Shown here piece by piece: positions 45,623-52,235 of a DNA stretch of 64,000 nt. Each line of letters begins with the position of its first letter. The first letter of the stretch is position 1. The position numbers were made by a program, and so were the translations under genes. The notes beneath the pieces were generated by a model that searched no databases, was not told the origin of the DNA, and saw nothing but the letters and a program-made list of their open reading frames with translations. The DNA comes from Cladocopium goreaui (Eukaryota > Sar > Dinophyceae > Suessiales > Symbiodiniaceae): assembly GCA_947184155.2 (NCBI GenBank), contig CAMXCT020000254.1:202001-266000 (forward strand), in the 5' to 3' direction.

Positions 45623-45903
45623 ATCCCAAATATGATTTCACCAAGAACCTGTGACAAGCCTACTGAAATCGTGATCCGTTCTGTGATTTGTTGGCTACAC
45701 ATATCTAATCAACTTACCTTTTACCAGCAAATATCCACTAAGGTATATATAAATAAAAAAATAAATCTGGCTGAATGTCGTCATAATCAGCAATCGGAAA
45801 AAAAAGGCGAAAGCGTGCCAGGAGTTACCCTTACAAGCGTTTACTAAGCATCATTTCTAGTGACCACCTGATTTCATATTCCCATATATATATATATATA
45901 TAT

Positions 45904-45925
45904 GGTACCCCCCCCCAAGACCTAC
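45904..45925 (+). repeat. Left terminal inverted repeat
   Basis: GGTA, nine C, AAGACCTAC. It matches the right end except for the second base and one C in the homopolymer. The outer flank is (AT)n at 45883-45903. Confidence 0.78.
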
Positions 45926-46067
45926 CAATTTCACAAAAGTACTGGTATTTACAGTAAAATTTGCTATTTTTGGTATGTAATTTTGGATTCCGGGATTTGG
46001 GGGATGTTATATAGTGTATATATACATATATATATATACATAGAGGATTCAAGCCTTGAATCCAACC

Positions 46068-46642
46068 CTTGTGGGAATCTTGGATCTTGGATCTTGAATC
46101 TTGCAAAGAATGCATTCAGAATGCATTCTTTCGGCAGGATTCAAGATTCAAGATTCAAGATTTCTGAGGACTCTTTGGAGCAAATCTTGAATCCACCCCC
46201 TGGATTCAAGATTCAAGATTCAAGATTTCTGGGGACTCTTTGGGGCAAATCTTGAATCCGGATTCAAGATTTGCTGGGGACTCTTTGGGGCAAATCTTGA
46301 ATCCTGGATTCAAGATTGAAAAGAGTCCCCAGAAATCTTGAATCTTGAATCCTGGATTCAAGATTTGCTGGAAAGAGTCCTCAGGAATCTTGAATCTTGA
46401 ATCCTGGATTCAAGATTTGCCCCAAAGAGTCCCCAGAAATCTTGAATCTTGAATCCTGGATTCAAGATTTGCTGGAAAGAGTCCTCAGGAATCTTGAATC
46501 TTGAATCCAGGGGGTGGATTCAAGATTTGCTCCAAAGAGTCCCTAGAAATCTTGAATCTTGAATCTTGAATCCTGCCGAAAGAATGCATTCTGAATGCAT
46601 TCTTTGCAAGATTCAAAATCCAAGATCCAAGTTTCCCACAAG
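46068..46642. promoter_or_regulatory. 575-bp imperfect palindrome upstream of the genes
   Basis: The arms run from cttgtggg at 46068 inward and from cccacaag at 46642 inward. Both contain, in mirror order, gaatcttgcaaagaatgc, attctttcggcaggattc, aagattcaagatttct and gactctttgg.gcaaatcttg. The region is built from attcaagattc-type units. It lies between the left end of the transposon and the first gene. It may be a transposase-binding or promoter region, but its role is inferred from position only. Confidence 0.7.
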
Positions 46643-46648
46643 ACTTTT

Positions 46649-46918
46649 GATCAAAATCTTGGATTTCTAAAGAAGTTTCATAGGGACTAGTAAGAGTATT
46701 CTGGCAAATTCCAAACCCAAGATTTGCACAAGACTTCTCCGCAATTCTTAGACCTTGGATCTTAGATCTTGGGAAGAATGCATGATCAAAATCTTGGATT
46801 CCTAAAGAATTTTCATAGGGATTGGTAAGAGTATTCTGGCAAATTCCAAACCCAAGATTTGCACAAGACTTCTCCGCAATTCTTAGATCTTGGATCTTAG
46901 ATATTGGGAAGAATGCAT
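46649..46918. repeat. 135-bp tandem duplication
   Basis: GATCAAAATCTTGGATT recurs at 46649 and 46784. The units share ttcatagggact.gtaagag, tattctggcaaattccaaac and gcacaagacttctccgc, and are about 95 percent alike. It directly precedes the first gene of the transposon. Confidence 0.85.
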
Positions 46919-47059
46919 TATGGATGCATTCCTTTAGGCTGGAAAAGACATAAATACAATTCCTGCCATCCATTGTCACTGCTCCATTCTTGCAATCCAT
47001 TGTCACTGCCCCAGTGCCATTCTTGTTCTCAGCTTTCATCGCTTCCCCTCTTATTTGCC

Positions 47060-47788
47060 ATGGCGTTCTTCAACGTGACCGGCACGGTGAATATGTCGCA
47101 AGGCAAGGCCATCATGACATTGACACCAGAGCCTGACATCAAAGTGACCATGACTCGACCGTCAACATCTCAGCTCCTGGAAAAAATCGGAGCAGGAACA
47201 GTCAAGGTTCATGACAGCCGCCATCCAGTTGCAAAGAGAGACCTGACGACTATGATGGACACGATTCAAAGGCAACTGCGCCTGCGTCCGGGAGGTGATG
47301 GTGAATGGAGTGCAGATGCCCAGCAGCGCTTAGAAAACTTACTGGCCAATCCGAAAAGGAGCACTGCAACTGTGCAATTGGCCTTGGAAGATGTGAAGCC
47401 ATCATCCTCCAGTTCCACTTTGGAAGAGAAGAAGCCAGCATCCTCGTCTTCCACATCCGATTCCGATTCGGATTCATCATCTTCCGAAGGTCCACAACAT
47501 CAGGCAGATGCTGAACTCGAGAAGAAAAGCAAGGAAGTGATCAAATGGAAAGAGGAGTTTGAGGGGATTTTCTCGGCATTGCATCACACCTCTTGCGAGC
47601 TTGCGAAGGCAACCGCTCAGATTGAGGAGCAGAATGAGATCATCGCAGGGCTGTCTCAGGAAAATGCCGCTTTGCGGCGCCGGCTACAGCCGGAAAACGC
47701 CGCGGATATCCCTATGGATATGGGTGAATCTTTGGCTGCTGAAGCTTCGTCTCCTGACTCTTCTGATCATGAAATGGCATCCGATTGA
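47060..47788 (+). CDS. Ser-rich coiled-coil protein, transposon gene 1
   Basis: 242 residues from ATG 47060, chosen because it is in a GCCATGG context and the upstream in-frame extension runs into the repeat region. Residues 1-113 form a mixed N-terminal region (MAFFNVTGTVNMSQG...) that I do not recognise. 114-150 is a Ser/Asp-rich acidic linker, and about 152-208 is a coiled coil (IEEQNEIIAGLSQENAALRR). There is no membrane segment. It is the first gene of the three-gene transposon. The stop at 47786-47788 overlaps an ATG-initiated frame (47769) that leads into the ATPase gene. The function is unknown; an adaptor or DNA-binding partner is a guess. Confidence 0.7.
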   Translation: MAFFNVTGTVNMSQGKAIMTLTPEPDIKVTMTRPSTSQLLEKIGAGTVKVHDSRHPVAKRDLTTMMDTIQRQLRLRPGGDGEWSADAQQRLENLLANPKRSTATVQLALEDVKPSSSSSTLEEKKPASSSSTSDSDSDSSSSEGPQHQADAELEKKSKEVIKWKEEFEGIFSALHHTSCELAKATAQIEEQNEIIAGLSQENAALRRRLQPENAADIPMDMGESLAAEASSPDSSDHEMASD

Positions 47789-47885
47789 TGTCGCTGAGAC
47801 AAGGGCATGCGGGTTGAAAAAGATGTATCTCTCATTGTGTCCGCTTGATGCACACTGAAAAGAAAAGCAGTCTGGCACTAGAGCC

Positions 47886-49787
47886 TTGAGCCTTAGTAAG
47901 GCAATCCAAGCATTGGGAAAGAAACCGTTATATCTACGACCCTTGGAAGAAGCCAAATGTGGGATTGTCGAAGTGGAAGAGCCCATCACATGCATTGGAT
48001 TCACCACTGATGCGTGCAGACCTTTGCAAAAGGGTGTGAAATCCATTACAGTTCTCTTTGATTTCCACAACGACATACCCTCATGTGGCGAACCAGTCGA
48101 CATTGGCCAGATCGCTATGCAATATCGATGGGATGATTTACCTGAACCCATCCGTTTCAAAGGCACTCCTCCGAGTACAACCAAAATGGACTTCGTGCAT
48201 GTGACCATGGCGAATGGAAACGTAGATGTTCTCAAAGTGCTCTATCTGCCACGTCCGATGTCCTTTCAAGCTGCCGAAGCTTTGTGCAGTGGGAAAGCTT
48301 ATATTCCAGTCTTTAGATCGGGGCCCTGGAACATCAAAAAGGGAGTGCAGTGGCTTCTCAATCATTTGGGAGGGTATCAACTTAGATGGTTTGCCCTTGA
48401 AGAGAAGACCCAGGCGGAGCATTCCTCAAAACCTACCTGGTCACCATCAAGGTCTGAGCTGGAAGAAGGCATCTACCATATCAATGCATTTGCCCCAGAA
48501 TGTGACGCTCTCAACGAGCAAACACTGTGGATCCTGCTCAACATCAAGCCTGACTCAAGCACACCTATTGCAGGATGGCCGGAGGCGAAGGTACGGCAAA
48601 TGTGCCAAAACAAAAGCAAGGGGCTTGGAGGTGCTGTGAGTATGACCGAGTTTCCCCTCACAACCTATAGCCTGAAGCCATTCTTGCACACTATCTTGCT
48701 ACCATACTTGTATCCACTGCTCATCAACTTTGGCCTCTTGCTGCTGGGTTGTCCTGGTGTGGGGAAAACGCCCTTTGTGATCACTCTGGCAATGGCGCTT
48801 GGTCGTTACCACGTTCGTCGATCTGGATGTGAAGGCCTGAAGGCTGGTTGGCGCCGAGCCAAATCCCTGGACAACTTCAGGCACAAAGCCCCTCAGGTTC
48901 AAGAGGCTCTCTTTCTAGACGACCCCGATCGAAGCAAGGTGCGCATAGCCGACCTGAAGAGTTTCCTTACATGTGATGAGGATGGAACGGTTGAGTCCAG
49001 GTACAACGATACCAAGATGTTACGGAATCAAATGAGGGCCTATGCGTCCAATGACTTGGCAGAAGAAAGACTTGATTGCAATGCAGGTGACACAGTGACT
49101 TCTGAAGCCAACTTCTTTAGCTTGCTTGATGAATTCTTCCGCCGTGACAGAGAGAAAGATGTCTTGGCAGTACTGAAACGCTCCATTGTCTTCATGTTCG
49201 GCAACCACGCTCTCTACCTTCGTTTGCCAAGTGCACATAGAGATGCCATTGTGCATCGGATTTGCCTGGAGGACGTGCATCTTGACTTGCTAGGTGAGCG
49301 GGACAAACCTTTGTATGGAAAGTACAAGGGAGGTACGATGGAGACTGGATCAAACTTTGATGCAGAGATTCTCCAGGAACAGGAAATCTTGGAGGAAGGA
49401 TTTCAGAAGATTGCAGGATATGAAAACCTGCAGGATTATGTTGCTTATGTGAACCACAAGCTTCAGGACAAACTTCTTTTCCGCAGTGCCCATGTTGTGC
49501 CACCATCATCCTGCCCTTCTACTCCAGAAGCCAATATGGATGTGGTCTGCCCTGTGCCTCCCATTGGCACTCAACCCTCGGGGCGTCGCCGTGGCAATTT
49601 CGTCTATCCCGATCGTCGACTACGGGCCAAGACTTCTCCACCACCATCGCAGCACATTGAGGAGTTGGCTGAGGATGCAGAAGCTGCATACCAAGATCCC
49701 ATGGAAGCGGAGCCTGAGGAACCGAAGAGTATGGATTTAGAGGCTGATGAAGAGGCAGCCCACTACATGGGACTGAATGGCATGTAG
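47886..49787 (+). CDS. P-loop ATPase (SF3/AAA+-like), transposon gene 2
   Basis: 633 open codons, numbered from 47886. Walker A is GCPGVGKT at 288-295. Walker B is ALFLDDPD with D345-D346. A segment CDEDGTVESRYND precedes RAYASND, where N389 sits in the sensor-1 (motif C) position. This order resembles SF3/Rep-type helicases and AAA+ ATPases. The N-terminal roughly 280 residues are unrecognised, and the C-terminus is acidic (about 590-633). The frame has no ATG at its start. The same phase is open from ATG 47769, with plausible coding (IDVAETRACGLKK), but is broken by TGA at 47856-47858. This could be a CGA-to-TGA mutation, an intron or a true boundary. By analogy with MuB, TnsC or IstB the protein may assist the transposase (inference). 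Confidence 0.75.
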   Translation: MSLSKAIQALGKKPLYLRPLEEAKCGIVEVEEPITCIGFTTDACRPLQKGVKSITVLFDFHNDIPSCGEPVDIGQIAMQYRWDDLPEPIRFKGTPPSTTKMDFVHVTMANGNVDVLKVLYLPRPMSFQAAEALCSGKAYIPVFRSGPWNIKKGVQWLLNHLGGYQLRWFALEEKTQAEHSSKPTWSPSRSELEEGIYHINAFAPECDALNEQTLWILLNIKPDSSTPIAGWPEAKVRQMCQNKSKGLGGAVSMTEFPLTTYSLKPFLHTILLPYLYPLLINFGLLLLGCPGVGKTPFVITLAMALGRYHVRRSGCEGLKAGWRRAKSLDNFRHKAPQVQEALFLDDPDRSKVRIADLKSFLTCDEDGTVESRYNDTKMLRNQMRAYASNDLAEERLDCNAGDTVTSEANFFSLLDEFFRRDREKDVLAVLKRSIVFMFGNHALYLRLPSAHRDAIVHRICLEDVHLDLLGERDKPLYGKYKGGTMETGSNFDAEILQEQEILEEGFQKIAGYENLQDYVAYVNHKLQDKLLFRSAHVVPPSSCPSTPEANMDVVCPVPPIGTQPSGRRRGNFVYPDRRLRAKTSPPPSQHIEELAEDAEAAYQDPMEAEPEEPKSMDLEADEEAAHYMGLNGM

Positions 49788-50052
49788 ACAAGTAGCCTAT
49801 AATTCGAATGCAGTAGATTCGTACAATAGCAAGATAGACTTGCGAAGTCGTGTCCGAGGGGAGAAGAAAAAAAAAGGAACATAGCCATCGCACGAAAAGG
49901 TTATGTTGTCGGTGTTGTGCAATCAAGGTCCGCTGTCTCCATCGAAGCACAAGTAATTGCAAGCGAAGCGAGCATCCATTCATGCATATTGCACTGCAGC
50001 ATACAGCTCAACTCTTGTGTTCCATATAGCCATCACTCAAGGCCATTGCGCT

Positions 50053-51294
50053 ATGCGTTCCAAATTCAATCCATTCCCGGCACCAAAGAAGGGCAAATCT
50101 CGTATGGTCTTGAAACGCCCAGCTTCTCAGAAGACGAAGGCAAAGTCTTGGCAGAATGTACCGTATACAAGGGGTGCTGCGGATGTTGGTCCGCGGGGTC
50201 TTCGCATGGACCAGACAAAGTGGAAGAGGTCCTTGCCAGACATCCTCCATGCGACCGACAAGGGGATCGTGCAGATGTTGATGCAGGACGGCTTGTTGCC
50301 TGATTGGCGTGGCAAAACTTGTCCTCGGTGTGAGAAGGGGAAGCTACGCGGTTGGGTGCAGAAGCCTGGTGACTCATCCCCTAAGCTTCGCTGCAATTCC
50401 AGGGGGTGCCAGGTCTACTTCAATCCGCATCACTTGCACCCTCTGTTTACAGAAGGTTATGGTGTGGCAGGTAGCCCCTTGCAGACTCAGGCTGCCCTAT
50501 TACTTCTCAAAATCAACAACATTCCAAACTCCACCATCCACAGGCTCATGCATGTGAATCACAAGGCCATCGAGGACTTGGACAAGCGATTGGCTTTACT
50601 ACGCAAGGAGTATGTGGAGGAGAAGGAGAAAGAGATTGTCTTCGGCAACGGAGCAGCGTGGCAGGATGTCGAGGCAGACGAAACTACATTCGACAAGAAG
50701 ACTATCACTGATGTGTCAGAGCTGGGCAACACCAAGAAGCCAATTGAGTGGGAACAATGGTGTGGTATTGTTCAGCGAGGGAAGCCGGAGTCGTTGGTCT
50801 TGCATCGTCTGAAGCCTGTTCGTACAGATGCACGTGCACCGGGACGCGGTGCAGTACGCAAAGTCGAGTGGCGTCCCCTTGCTGACCATTGGCTGAAGAA
50901 CAGAAAGGTTGTGTTGCACACGGATTCTGCCAAGAGTTATAGGGTCCGTGTTGCAGGGGTGTTGCACGATCGAGTAGTCCATTGCAAAAAACGCGTGAAA
51001 GTACGCGGCAAATGGAAATGGCAGGCGCCACGATATGTCAAAGTAGTGGAACACAAGCTTCCAGGCACAAAAAAAAAGATCCGTGTGAAAGCTGGCACCC
51101 AAGTGATTGACCGCTGCTGGCGTTTCTTAAAGGAGCGTCTCAGCCTTAATCAAAATACAAAAGCCGGGTCGAGCCTGCTGAGATCCAAACTCCGATCTGC
51201 TCAGTATCAGTATTGGTACAAAAATGCAGACATGTGGGTGGCGACCGGATCTCTGTTCCAATGGGCCGCAAAGCGCCTTATGGGCAAGAAGTGA
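50053..51294 (+). CDS. IS1595/ISXO2/Merlin-type transposase, transposon gene 3
   Basis: 413 residues from ATG 50053; the longer open frame starts with TTG. The N-terminus is basic (PAPKKGKSRMVLKRP). A zinc ribbon has C90, C93, C114 and C119, followed by a helix-turn-helix-like region. The RNase-H-fold core has VEADETTF with D209, HTDSAKSY with D291, and VIDRCWRFLKERL with D353. The last aligns with the family motif containing N..E..W..LK, so the third acidic residue is Asp where Glu is usual. The spacing D291-D353 is long because of a Lys/Arg-rich insertion (about residues 308-345). Near-terminal SLFQWAAKRLMGKK is basic. It should cut and join the element ends. The frame is intact. Confidence 0.85.
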   Translation: MRSKFNPFPAPKKGKSRMVLKRPASQKTKAKSWQNVPYTRGAADVGPRGLRMDQTKWKRSLPDILHATDKGIVQMLMQDGLLPDWRGKTCPRCEKGKLRGWVQKPGDSSPKLRCNSRGCQVYFNPHHLHPLFTEGYGVAGSPLQTQAALLLLKINNIPNSTIHRLMHVNHKAIEDLDKRLALLRKEYVEEKEKEIVFGNGAAWQDVEADETTFDKKTITDVSELGNTKKPIEWEQWCGIVQRGKPESLVLHRLKPVRTDARAPGRGAVRKVEWRPLADHWLKNRKVVLHTDSAKSYRVRVAGVLHDRVVHCKKRVKVRGKWKWQAPRYVKVVEHKLPGTKKKIRVKAGTQVIDRCWRFLKERLSLNQNTKAGSSLLRSKLRSAQYQYWYKNADMWVATGSLFQWAAKRLMGKK

Positions 51295-51510
51295 GCCGTA
51301 GAGCTTTGGGGAAAAATGCATTGCAATATATTGCTTCGGGTCTTCCGTGTTCACAATCGTGCCGAGAGCTTCTTTTTGATCCAATTTCTGCCAAGTCTTC
51401 TTCATGGAATATGTCTCGATTGGTGTCTCGTTGTTCCTCGGTCCAATTGAGTTATGCGCTATGATAATGCTACACATGGGCTCATGCATCCAAAGCAATA
51501 CATTCTCTGT

Positions 51511-52150
51511 CCTTTCCCACCCACCCAGGTGCTCTCAGTGTTCATGCACCTACGTGGTCAGTTTCTTCACATGTGCTATGCTACAGCTACATATGTGGGC
51601 AAGATGTGTCCAGGTGCATGCGTACAAGCTACTTTCCTGATGCAGTGTTACAATAGGTGAGAAGATAAGGAGAAAGACAAGGCAGTCAAGGACATATCTG
51701 GTACACAAAATGTCTCGTGTCTTGTTTGTCCTTTCCCACCCACCCAGGTGCTCTCAGTGTTCATGCACCTACGTGGTCAGTTTCTTCACATGTGCTATGC
51801 TACAGCTACATATGTGGGCGAGATGTGTCCAGGTGCATGCGCATAAGCTACTTTCCTGATGCAGTGTTGCGATAGGTGAGAAGATGAGAAGAAAGACAAG
51901 GCAGTCAAGGACATATCTGGTACACAAAATGTCTAGTGTATTGCTTGTCCTTTCCCACCCACCCAGGTGCTCTCAGTGTTCATGCACCTACGTGGTCAGT
52001 TTCTTCACATGTGCTATGCTACAGCTACATATGTGGGCGAGATGTGTCCAGGTGCATGCGCACAAGCTACTTTCCTGATGCAGTGTTGCAATAGGTGAGA
52101 AGATGAGAAGAAAGACAAGGCAGCCAAGGACGTACCTAATACAAAAAATG
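51511..52150. repeat. 219-bp tandem repeat, about 2.9 copies
   Basis: CCTTTCCCACCCACCCAGG starts at 51511, 51730 and 51949, exactly 219 bp apart. Units contain catgcacctacgtggtcag, gctatgctacagctacatat and a gaagat.ag.agaaagacaagg tail. The third unit runs into the right terminal repeat. This is the subterminal region of the transposon next to the transposase gene. Confidence 0.9.
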
Positions 52151-52170
52151 TAGGTCTTGGGGGGGGTAGC
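52150..52170 (-). repeat. Right terminal inverted repeat
   Basis: GTAGGTCTTGGGGGGGGTAGC, the reverse complement of the left end with one substitution and one fewer homopolymer base. The outer flank is (AT)n from 52171. Confidence 0.78.
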
Positions 52171-52235
52171 ATATATATATATATGTGTGTGTGTGGTCAA
52201 ATATATATATATATACATATATATATATATGGTCC

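Follow-up and report, generated by a model that had tools for sequence, protein, structure and literature searches.

The window analysed here, a stretch of 64,000 nucleotides (nt) from the dinoflagellate Cladocopium goreaui (contig CAMXCT020000254.1, positions 202,001 to 266,000), contains a transposon at positions 45904-52170. Its outer edges are formed by matching terminal inverted repeats, both read directly: GGTACCCCCCCCCAAGACCTAC on the forward strand at the 5′ end (45904..45925) and GTAGGTCTTGGGGGGGGTAGC on the reverse strand at the 3′ end (52150..52170). The 5′ edge reads GGTACC...AAGACCTAC, sibling copies share the 3′ edge, and both edges adjoin (AT)n. Three genes lie between the ends, all on the forward strand. 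Open reading frame 1 (ORF1, 47060..47788) encodes 242 amino acids and comprises an N-terminal part, a serine-rich linker and a C-terminal part that resembles a coiled coil, as judged by eye and not computed. ORF2 (47886..49787, 633 codons as listed) is the open frame of a P-loop ATPase whose true start has been lost in this copy. ORF3 (50053..51294) encodes a transposase of 413 amino acids with a zinc ribbon and a putative IS1595-like D-D-D catalytic domain, both recognized from residues conserved in eight sequences. Repeats lie in the intervals between the ends and the genes, at 46068-46917 and 51503-52159. A sequence-only reading of the window had described this layout earlier; the inverted ends it gave for 45904 and 52170 proved exact, and the three same-strand genes and the repeats lie where it had placed them.

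The borders were checked against other copies in the 1.17-Gb genome assembly, for which all counts of protein matches given below are lower bounds. The core of the spliced leader occurs in this assembly in 172 exact copies (reversed control, 0), which marks the host as a dinoflagellate. A 26-mer adjoining the 5′ end was found at 30 places with two mismatches at most (control, 0), and among differently flanked copies homology begins at the edge corresponding to 45904 wherever 5′ edges were found. At the 3′ side, homology stops at the same edge in 29 ends from three of the families described below (A, B and E), and the 45 nt beyond that edge fall into 26 different sequences. As a check on its proposal, the sequence-only reading had named copies that keep both ends but differ in their flanks, together with 8-bp duplications; such copies exist.

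The duplications were found as well. In 20 copies of family A with both edges (15 long, 5 deleted), the flanking 8 bases are identical in 16, of which 15 carry ATATATAT. The remaining one, copy L008, whose 5′ repeat has lost its inner portion, has the non-repetitive duplication ATTATAAT on both sides (L008/L058). In most other copies the duplication is masked because AT repeats flank them. For the window copy, flank comparison gives a probable 8-bp target duplication with ATATATAT at 45896..45903 and again at 52171..52178, although its length is not provable there because ATATATAT sits inside an AT microsatellite. The preference for (AT)n is real, because 15 of the 20 copies carry ATATATAT, which starts at 96 of the 57,680 window positions scanned outside the element. 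Outside the flank set are L002 and L017 (one edge not covered), L006 (5′ edge GGCACC), L088 (3′ pattern unmatched), and L015, L019 and L020 (flanks in common with a listed copy or with one another; 5′ edge not covered). Six copies of 1.5-2.2 kb (L087-L092) have lost most of their genes through differing breakpoints and have kept both termini, as seen by alignment or by motif.

The three genes are linked across the genome. ORF2 has 71 matches; an ORF3 match follows on the same strand within 3 kb in 66 of them, mostly 267-354 nt away, and an ORF1 match precedes within 3.5 kb in 60. Counted from the transposase, which has at least 102 matches (the first 21 at 98-100%), an ATPase lies upstream in 85 of 102: 65 are paired with the ORF2 matches under the 3-kb limit, and 20 of the other 37 with additional ATPase matches within 4.5 kb (C1410 being two rows). 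Gene order is constant in eight families whose ATPases are 19-74% and whose transposases are 39-65% identical. That ORF1, ORF2 and ORF3 form one three-gene transposon is strongly supported. The single unit claimed earlier has therefore held up, since homology ending elsewhere, or genes found apart, was mostly not seen; the exceptions are unpaired ORF1, ORF2 and ORF3 matches and mismatched flanks, which are weighed below.

The window copy is a damaged member of its family, and its ATPase is without a start. The matches to ORF1 and ORF2 are separated by 101 nt in the window copy vs 355 nt in 15 other copies, and a 254-bp deletion with its junction at 47896..47897 has taken away the ATPase start codon that siblings retain. 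In siblings L074 and L075, ORF2 begins ATG GCT GGA ACA TTG ATG GAT AAG, a stretch missing from the window copy. The element had been called complete in the sequence-only reading, which needs correcting for the 254 bp that include the ATPase start. We also weighed, and discarded, an intron that would connect ORF1 with ORF2 in the window copy, because L074 and L075 carry a normal ATG where the window copy is deleted.

Both subterminal repeats vary among copies. The 5′ block (46068..46917) consists of a 154-nt inverted repeat (97%) with 52-bp units and a 135-bp direct repeat. The 3′ repeat (51503..52159) has three 219-bp units in the window; the unit number differs elsewhere, and the 3′ end positions of copies shift in steps of about 220. 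Judged from these positions in L001-L021, an element seemingly has about one to five copies of the 219-bp unit.

Eight families, A to H, were compared. A 5′ end of the form GGTAC(n) and a 3′ end reading G(n)TAGC or GGCTAGC are found in families A, B, E and F. The 5′ GG start extends to A, B, C, E, F and H (H seen on the 5′ side only), with family G starting GT, and the 3′ GC end to A, B, D, E, F and G. The 3′ ends of families C and H were searched for and not found, and for family D only the 3′ end was found. Family G has the ends GTTCAGCGGCCCCCCC...GCTGAGC, and the 5′ end of family H is GGTCACCCCCCCCC. Flanks beside the family ends read (AT)n or TATAT, families A, B, C, E, F and G sitting in (AT)n. 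In two family B copies, L023 (2955-2975) and L025, a second like element follows head to tail with TATAT alone between them, and family G (L067:6312-6797) has an extra open frame inside its ends, 3′ of the transposase.

Between families, the ATPase and the transposase are under similar constraint, with amino acids held and silent sites saturated. The proportions of nonsynonymous (pN) and synonymous (pS) differences are 0.22-0.29 vs 0.75-0.81 for ORF2 (two pairs) and 0.25-0.32 vs 0.74-0.84 for ORF3 (four pairs). ORF1 changes more quickly (pN 0.34-0.50, two pairs), and a tblastn search with it gave no match in the stretches from families E, F, G and H. In family F (L066, C5874:68500-75500), the ATPase shares 69-74% identity with its G and H counterparts, and the transposase is 64% identical to the B/C type and 41-42% to G/H. 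These identities point to a probable exchange of modules, in which a G/H-type ATPase came to stand with a B/C-type transposase; in an approximately unbiased (AU) test on the transposases, a grouping of F with G and H was borderline (p 0.058) and is not firmly excluded.

Transposases of Merlin and IS1595 have a zinc ribbon. In the eight aligned transposases, cysteines C90, C93, C114 and C119 of the ribbon are invariant, with weak zinc-ribbon matches in databases. The ribbon assigned in the sequence-only reading thus has these cysteines behind it, whereas the coiled coil it assigned to ORF1 remains a judgement by eye. The putative catalytic residues D209, D291 and D353 are also invariant in the eight sequences; the catalytic triad of IS1595 has Glu where the window-type transposase has Asp. 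The window transposase reached only E 0.13 and 12.6 bits against PF12762 (cut-off 27). NCBIfam model NF033547 (IS1595) was matched by two of the eight transposases, C3 (E 9.2e-8, 32.2 bits) and G3 (E 2e-7, 31.1 bits), far under its cut-off of 75, with no match for the other six; the family C transposase is 57% identical to that of the window. We therefore name the transposase IS1595-like, because the matches to NF033547 are below cut-off and confined to two of eight, and because Asp replaces Glu. The earlier label, Merlin/IS1595-like, finds some backing in these two relatives but little in the window protein itself, and membership of the element in Merlin is weakly supported by these sequence comparisons.

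The ATPase has a Walker A motif (GCPGVGKT), a Walker B motif (FLDD) and an invariant Asn 43 residues further on. Residues invariant in seven sequences include G285, G290 and K291 (Walker A), D342 and D343 (Walker B), R369, R381 and N386. On these motifs we call ORF2 a P-loop nucleoside triphosphatase (NTPase) of AAA+/superfamily 3 (SF3) grade. The IstB/TnsC/MuB family is absent, at the level of sequence, among the matches of the seven ATPases in Pfam and NCBIfam and of their profile in the PDB, and the N-terminal part has no recognised domain in Pfam or, by profile, in the PDB. A viral origin was considered and rejected, as no relative appeared in viral contigs or phages at the sensitivity used; nor did any appear at that sensitivity in plasmids or, by a pattern-based scan, in prokaryote genomes.

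Members of the same ATPase family also stand beside another transposase and a transposase-like protein. At the K locus (L084 + L077, C675:138117-145400), a family ATPase (30% identical to that of the window, E 3e-61) lies directly upstream of another IS1595-type transposase, which matches NF033547 at E 3.8e-8 (42.7 bits, below the cut-off of 75) and has DDE motifs seen by eye. BLAST found no likeness between this transposase and ORF3, and the ends of the K locus were looked for and not found. K may represent an old divergence and not a swap, because its transposase and ORF3 both point to IS1595. In the J elements L093 (C3999:3500-12500) and L094 (C6104:715500-722500), the ATPase lies upstream of the J protein (417/418 amino acids), which is unclassified but transposase-like, with the motif DDACHF...FHMKNHKC; Pfam gave it no meaningful match, and a profile comparison showed no resemblance to ORF3. 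An ORF1 homologue additionally lies downstream in L093. An ATPase match lies upstream on the same strand of all 13 J-protein matches covering at least 394 residues, in lists read by eye. The J elements have the ends CAGAAAGG...TCCC. Both ends were read in six (a seventh, without a 3′ end, is outside this set); three of the six have 8-bp duplications (AAATTGAT, AAAAAGTT and AAAAAAAA), all A/T-rich, and the other three have none, although one of these shares its 5′ flank with a matching copy. There are no perfect (AT)n runs at the J insertion sites.

The ATPase tree places J as the sister of F-H (support 96/96) and K as the sister of A-D (99/99); E and K are flagged there as long branches. A single group made up of J and K is rejected (p 0.00015). 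As judged from this phylogeny, there has been at least one change of transposase partner while the ATPase was conserved. It is somewhat more probable than not, in our view, that dinoflagellate genomes hold a mobile helper cassette, an ATPase with or without the coiled-coil protein, that has partnered with at least two, perhaps three, kinds of transposase (the window type, another IS1595 type and J). Transposases would have been swapped under the conserved ATPase, making the cassette a eukaryotic counterpart of the modular bacterial transposase-plus-ATPase systems. Two further IS1595-type transposases, L079 and L081, have an ORF1-like protein downstream, serine-rich and with a coiled-coil-like tail; that of L079 resembles ORF1 at E 8e-7 in a one-sequence blastp search, and that of L081 by eye.

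We propose, with a probability of roughly 80%, that the unit belongs to a large set of cut-and-paste DNA transposons with several genes each, in which the ATPase is a general helper while the transposase and the ends largely determine the target. The transposase would bind the terminal C-run repeats, cut, and join the element to AT-microsatellite DNA. The ATPase would assemble on DNA and activate or remodel the transposase-DNA complex, and ORF1, where present, may tether it to the transposase via the coiled coil. For the ATPase, a general helping role is more probable than one in choosing the target, because (AT)n insertion tracks the type of transposase and not the ATPase: (AT)n sites are common to families with ATPases as low as ~20% identical but with like transposases, whereas J, with an ATPase sister to F-H and another transposase, has no perfect (AT)n target. 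The same two observations tell against an ATPase that selects the target as TnsC, IstB and MuB do, binding AT-rich DNA and bringing the transposase to (AT)n, even though the J sites are few and their three duplications all A/T-rich. Such a selector would account for the order and co-occurrence of ATPase and transposase and for the excess of ATATATAT around family A copies over the window background, but we consider it unlikely.

The motifs of ORF2 invite a different function, since Walker A, a Walker B with DD and an Asn some 43 residues on recall SF3 helicases, and the K ATPase, the one member to do so, matches PF00910 (RNA_helicase) below cut-off at E 0.14. A replication helicase that copies or unwinds the element in a replicative or episomal step is doubtful, however: the three window proteins gave no hit to a named nuclease or primase family, the N-terminal part of the ATPase is without a recognised domain, and the ends and 8-bp duplications are typical of DDE cut-and-paste elements. 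Still less likely are ORF1 and ORF2 as passengers outside transposition, serving for example anti-silencing or host benefit. The faster evolution of ORF1 and its absence from the tblastn results for families E to H would be in keeping with this idea, but the ATPase stays beside at least two kinds of transposase in fixed order, including all 13 of the longest J-protein matches. A chance neighbourhood or a segmental duplication, with no transposon at all, is refuted by the differing flanks. Some copies do share flanks: L009/L015, L019/L020 and L029/L030, which are therefore segmental duplicates, and L012/L017 on the 5′ side. Against this stand the 26 distinct flanks among 29 3′ ends, the explicit 8-bp duplication and the six deleted copies with the same ends.

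Several observations weigh against the proposed three-gene transposon with its helper ATPase. The flanks of L021 and L087 do not match, and those of L003 and L007 mismatch at one base. No ATPase match lies upstream of 17 of the 102 ORF3 matches (C47, another fragment of an already paired unit, and C5862, a copy with a deletion, are among them), 5 of the 71 ORF2 matches are without an ORF3 match, and 65 of 125 ORF1 matches are without an adjoining ORF2 match from the 71, some of them being second fragments or lying beside more distant ATPases (C3999, C1424, C1444, C4290). Within family A changes are few, and the pooled ratio of nonsynonymous to synonymous substitution rates (dN/dS), 0.68 for ORF3 and 1.07 for part of ORF2, indicates no strong constraint. 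The ATPase has no significant match in Pfam, the PDB (by profile), PHROGs or NCBIfam, the best Pfam match being AAA at E 0.0094, below cut-off, and its class therefore rests on motifs. Finally, a profile comparison of the window-type and K transposases gave no link, from a thin alignment with one stray fragment in it.

Bacterial IS21 (IstA/IstB), Tn7 (TnsB/TnsC) and Mu (MuA/MuB) encode a DDE-type transposase and a P-loop ATPase side by side as a conserved pair. The window element resembles them in the linkage of its ATPase gene to the transposase across diverged members; it differs in its eukaryotic host and in its transposase, an IS1595-like enzyme outside the Mu/IS21 kind, and its ATPase has no sequence link found to theirs and does not track target choice in the families read. 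The analogy drawn in the sequence-only reading is thus reasonable as a statement of how the element works, but its suggestion of the ATPase as target selector is weakened, as the target follows the transposase in those families.

With Merlin/IS1595 the element shares the 5′ GG, 8-bp duplications and an IS1595-like catalytic domain, and Merlin families are also dinoflagellate-hosted, having been reported in Symbiodinium by Lopes et al. 2021 (PMC8101967). In the portion of that report available to us, Sy.m_F1 measures 2.57 kb, has a poor IS1595 domain score and no clear consensus for its target-site duplication (TSD), and, like the window element, carries 52-bp tandem units and inverted repeats near its 5′ end; Sy.k_F1 has a transposase and one overlapping antisense frame, attributed by the authors to chance (PMC8101967). 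Compared with the Symbiodinium elements as described in that portion, the window element is unlike in its length of 6.3 kb, its ATPase and ORF1, its 3′ GC in place of CC and its (AT)n targets, and the words "ATPase" and "helicase" have 0 occurrences in the main text (PMC8101967). The AcademH elements, as far as the accessible part of their description goes, are likewise eukaryotic DNA transposons encoding a helicase, but belong to another transposase superfamily, Academ, and have a TSD of 9 or 10 bp (PMC10045372). The literature listings searched, with most subscription journals and bioRxiv lying outside them, showed no ATPase reported for Merlin or for dinoflagellate transposons.

If the proposal is true, eukaryotic DNA transposons have evolved or kept the logic of Tn7, IS21 and Mu, a DDE transposase with a dedicated ATPase. 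The swapped transposase-ATPase pairs would form a natural set for asking what such ATPases do, with (AT)n insertion as a simple test readout. The 5′ border of the window element lies ~4 kb upstream of the transposase, past two other genes, and a border so distant might explain, as a guess, why the work described in the available portion of PMC8101967 failed to locate the 5′ borders of certain Merlin copies in dinoflagellates. A multi-gene transposon design with an ATPase, better known from bacteria, would here be represented by many families in one dinoflagellate genome.

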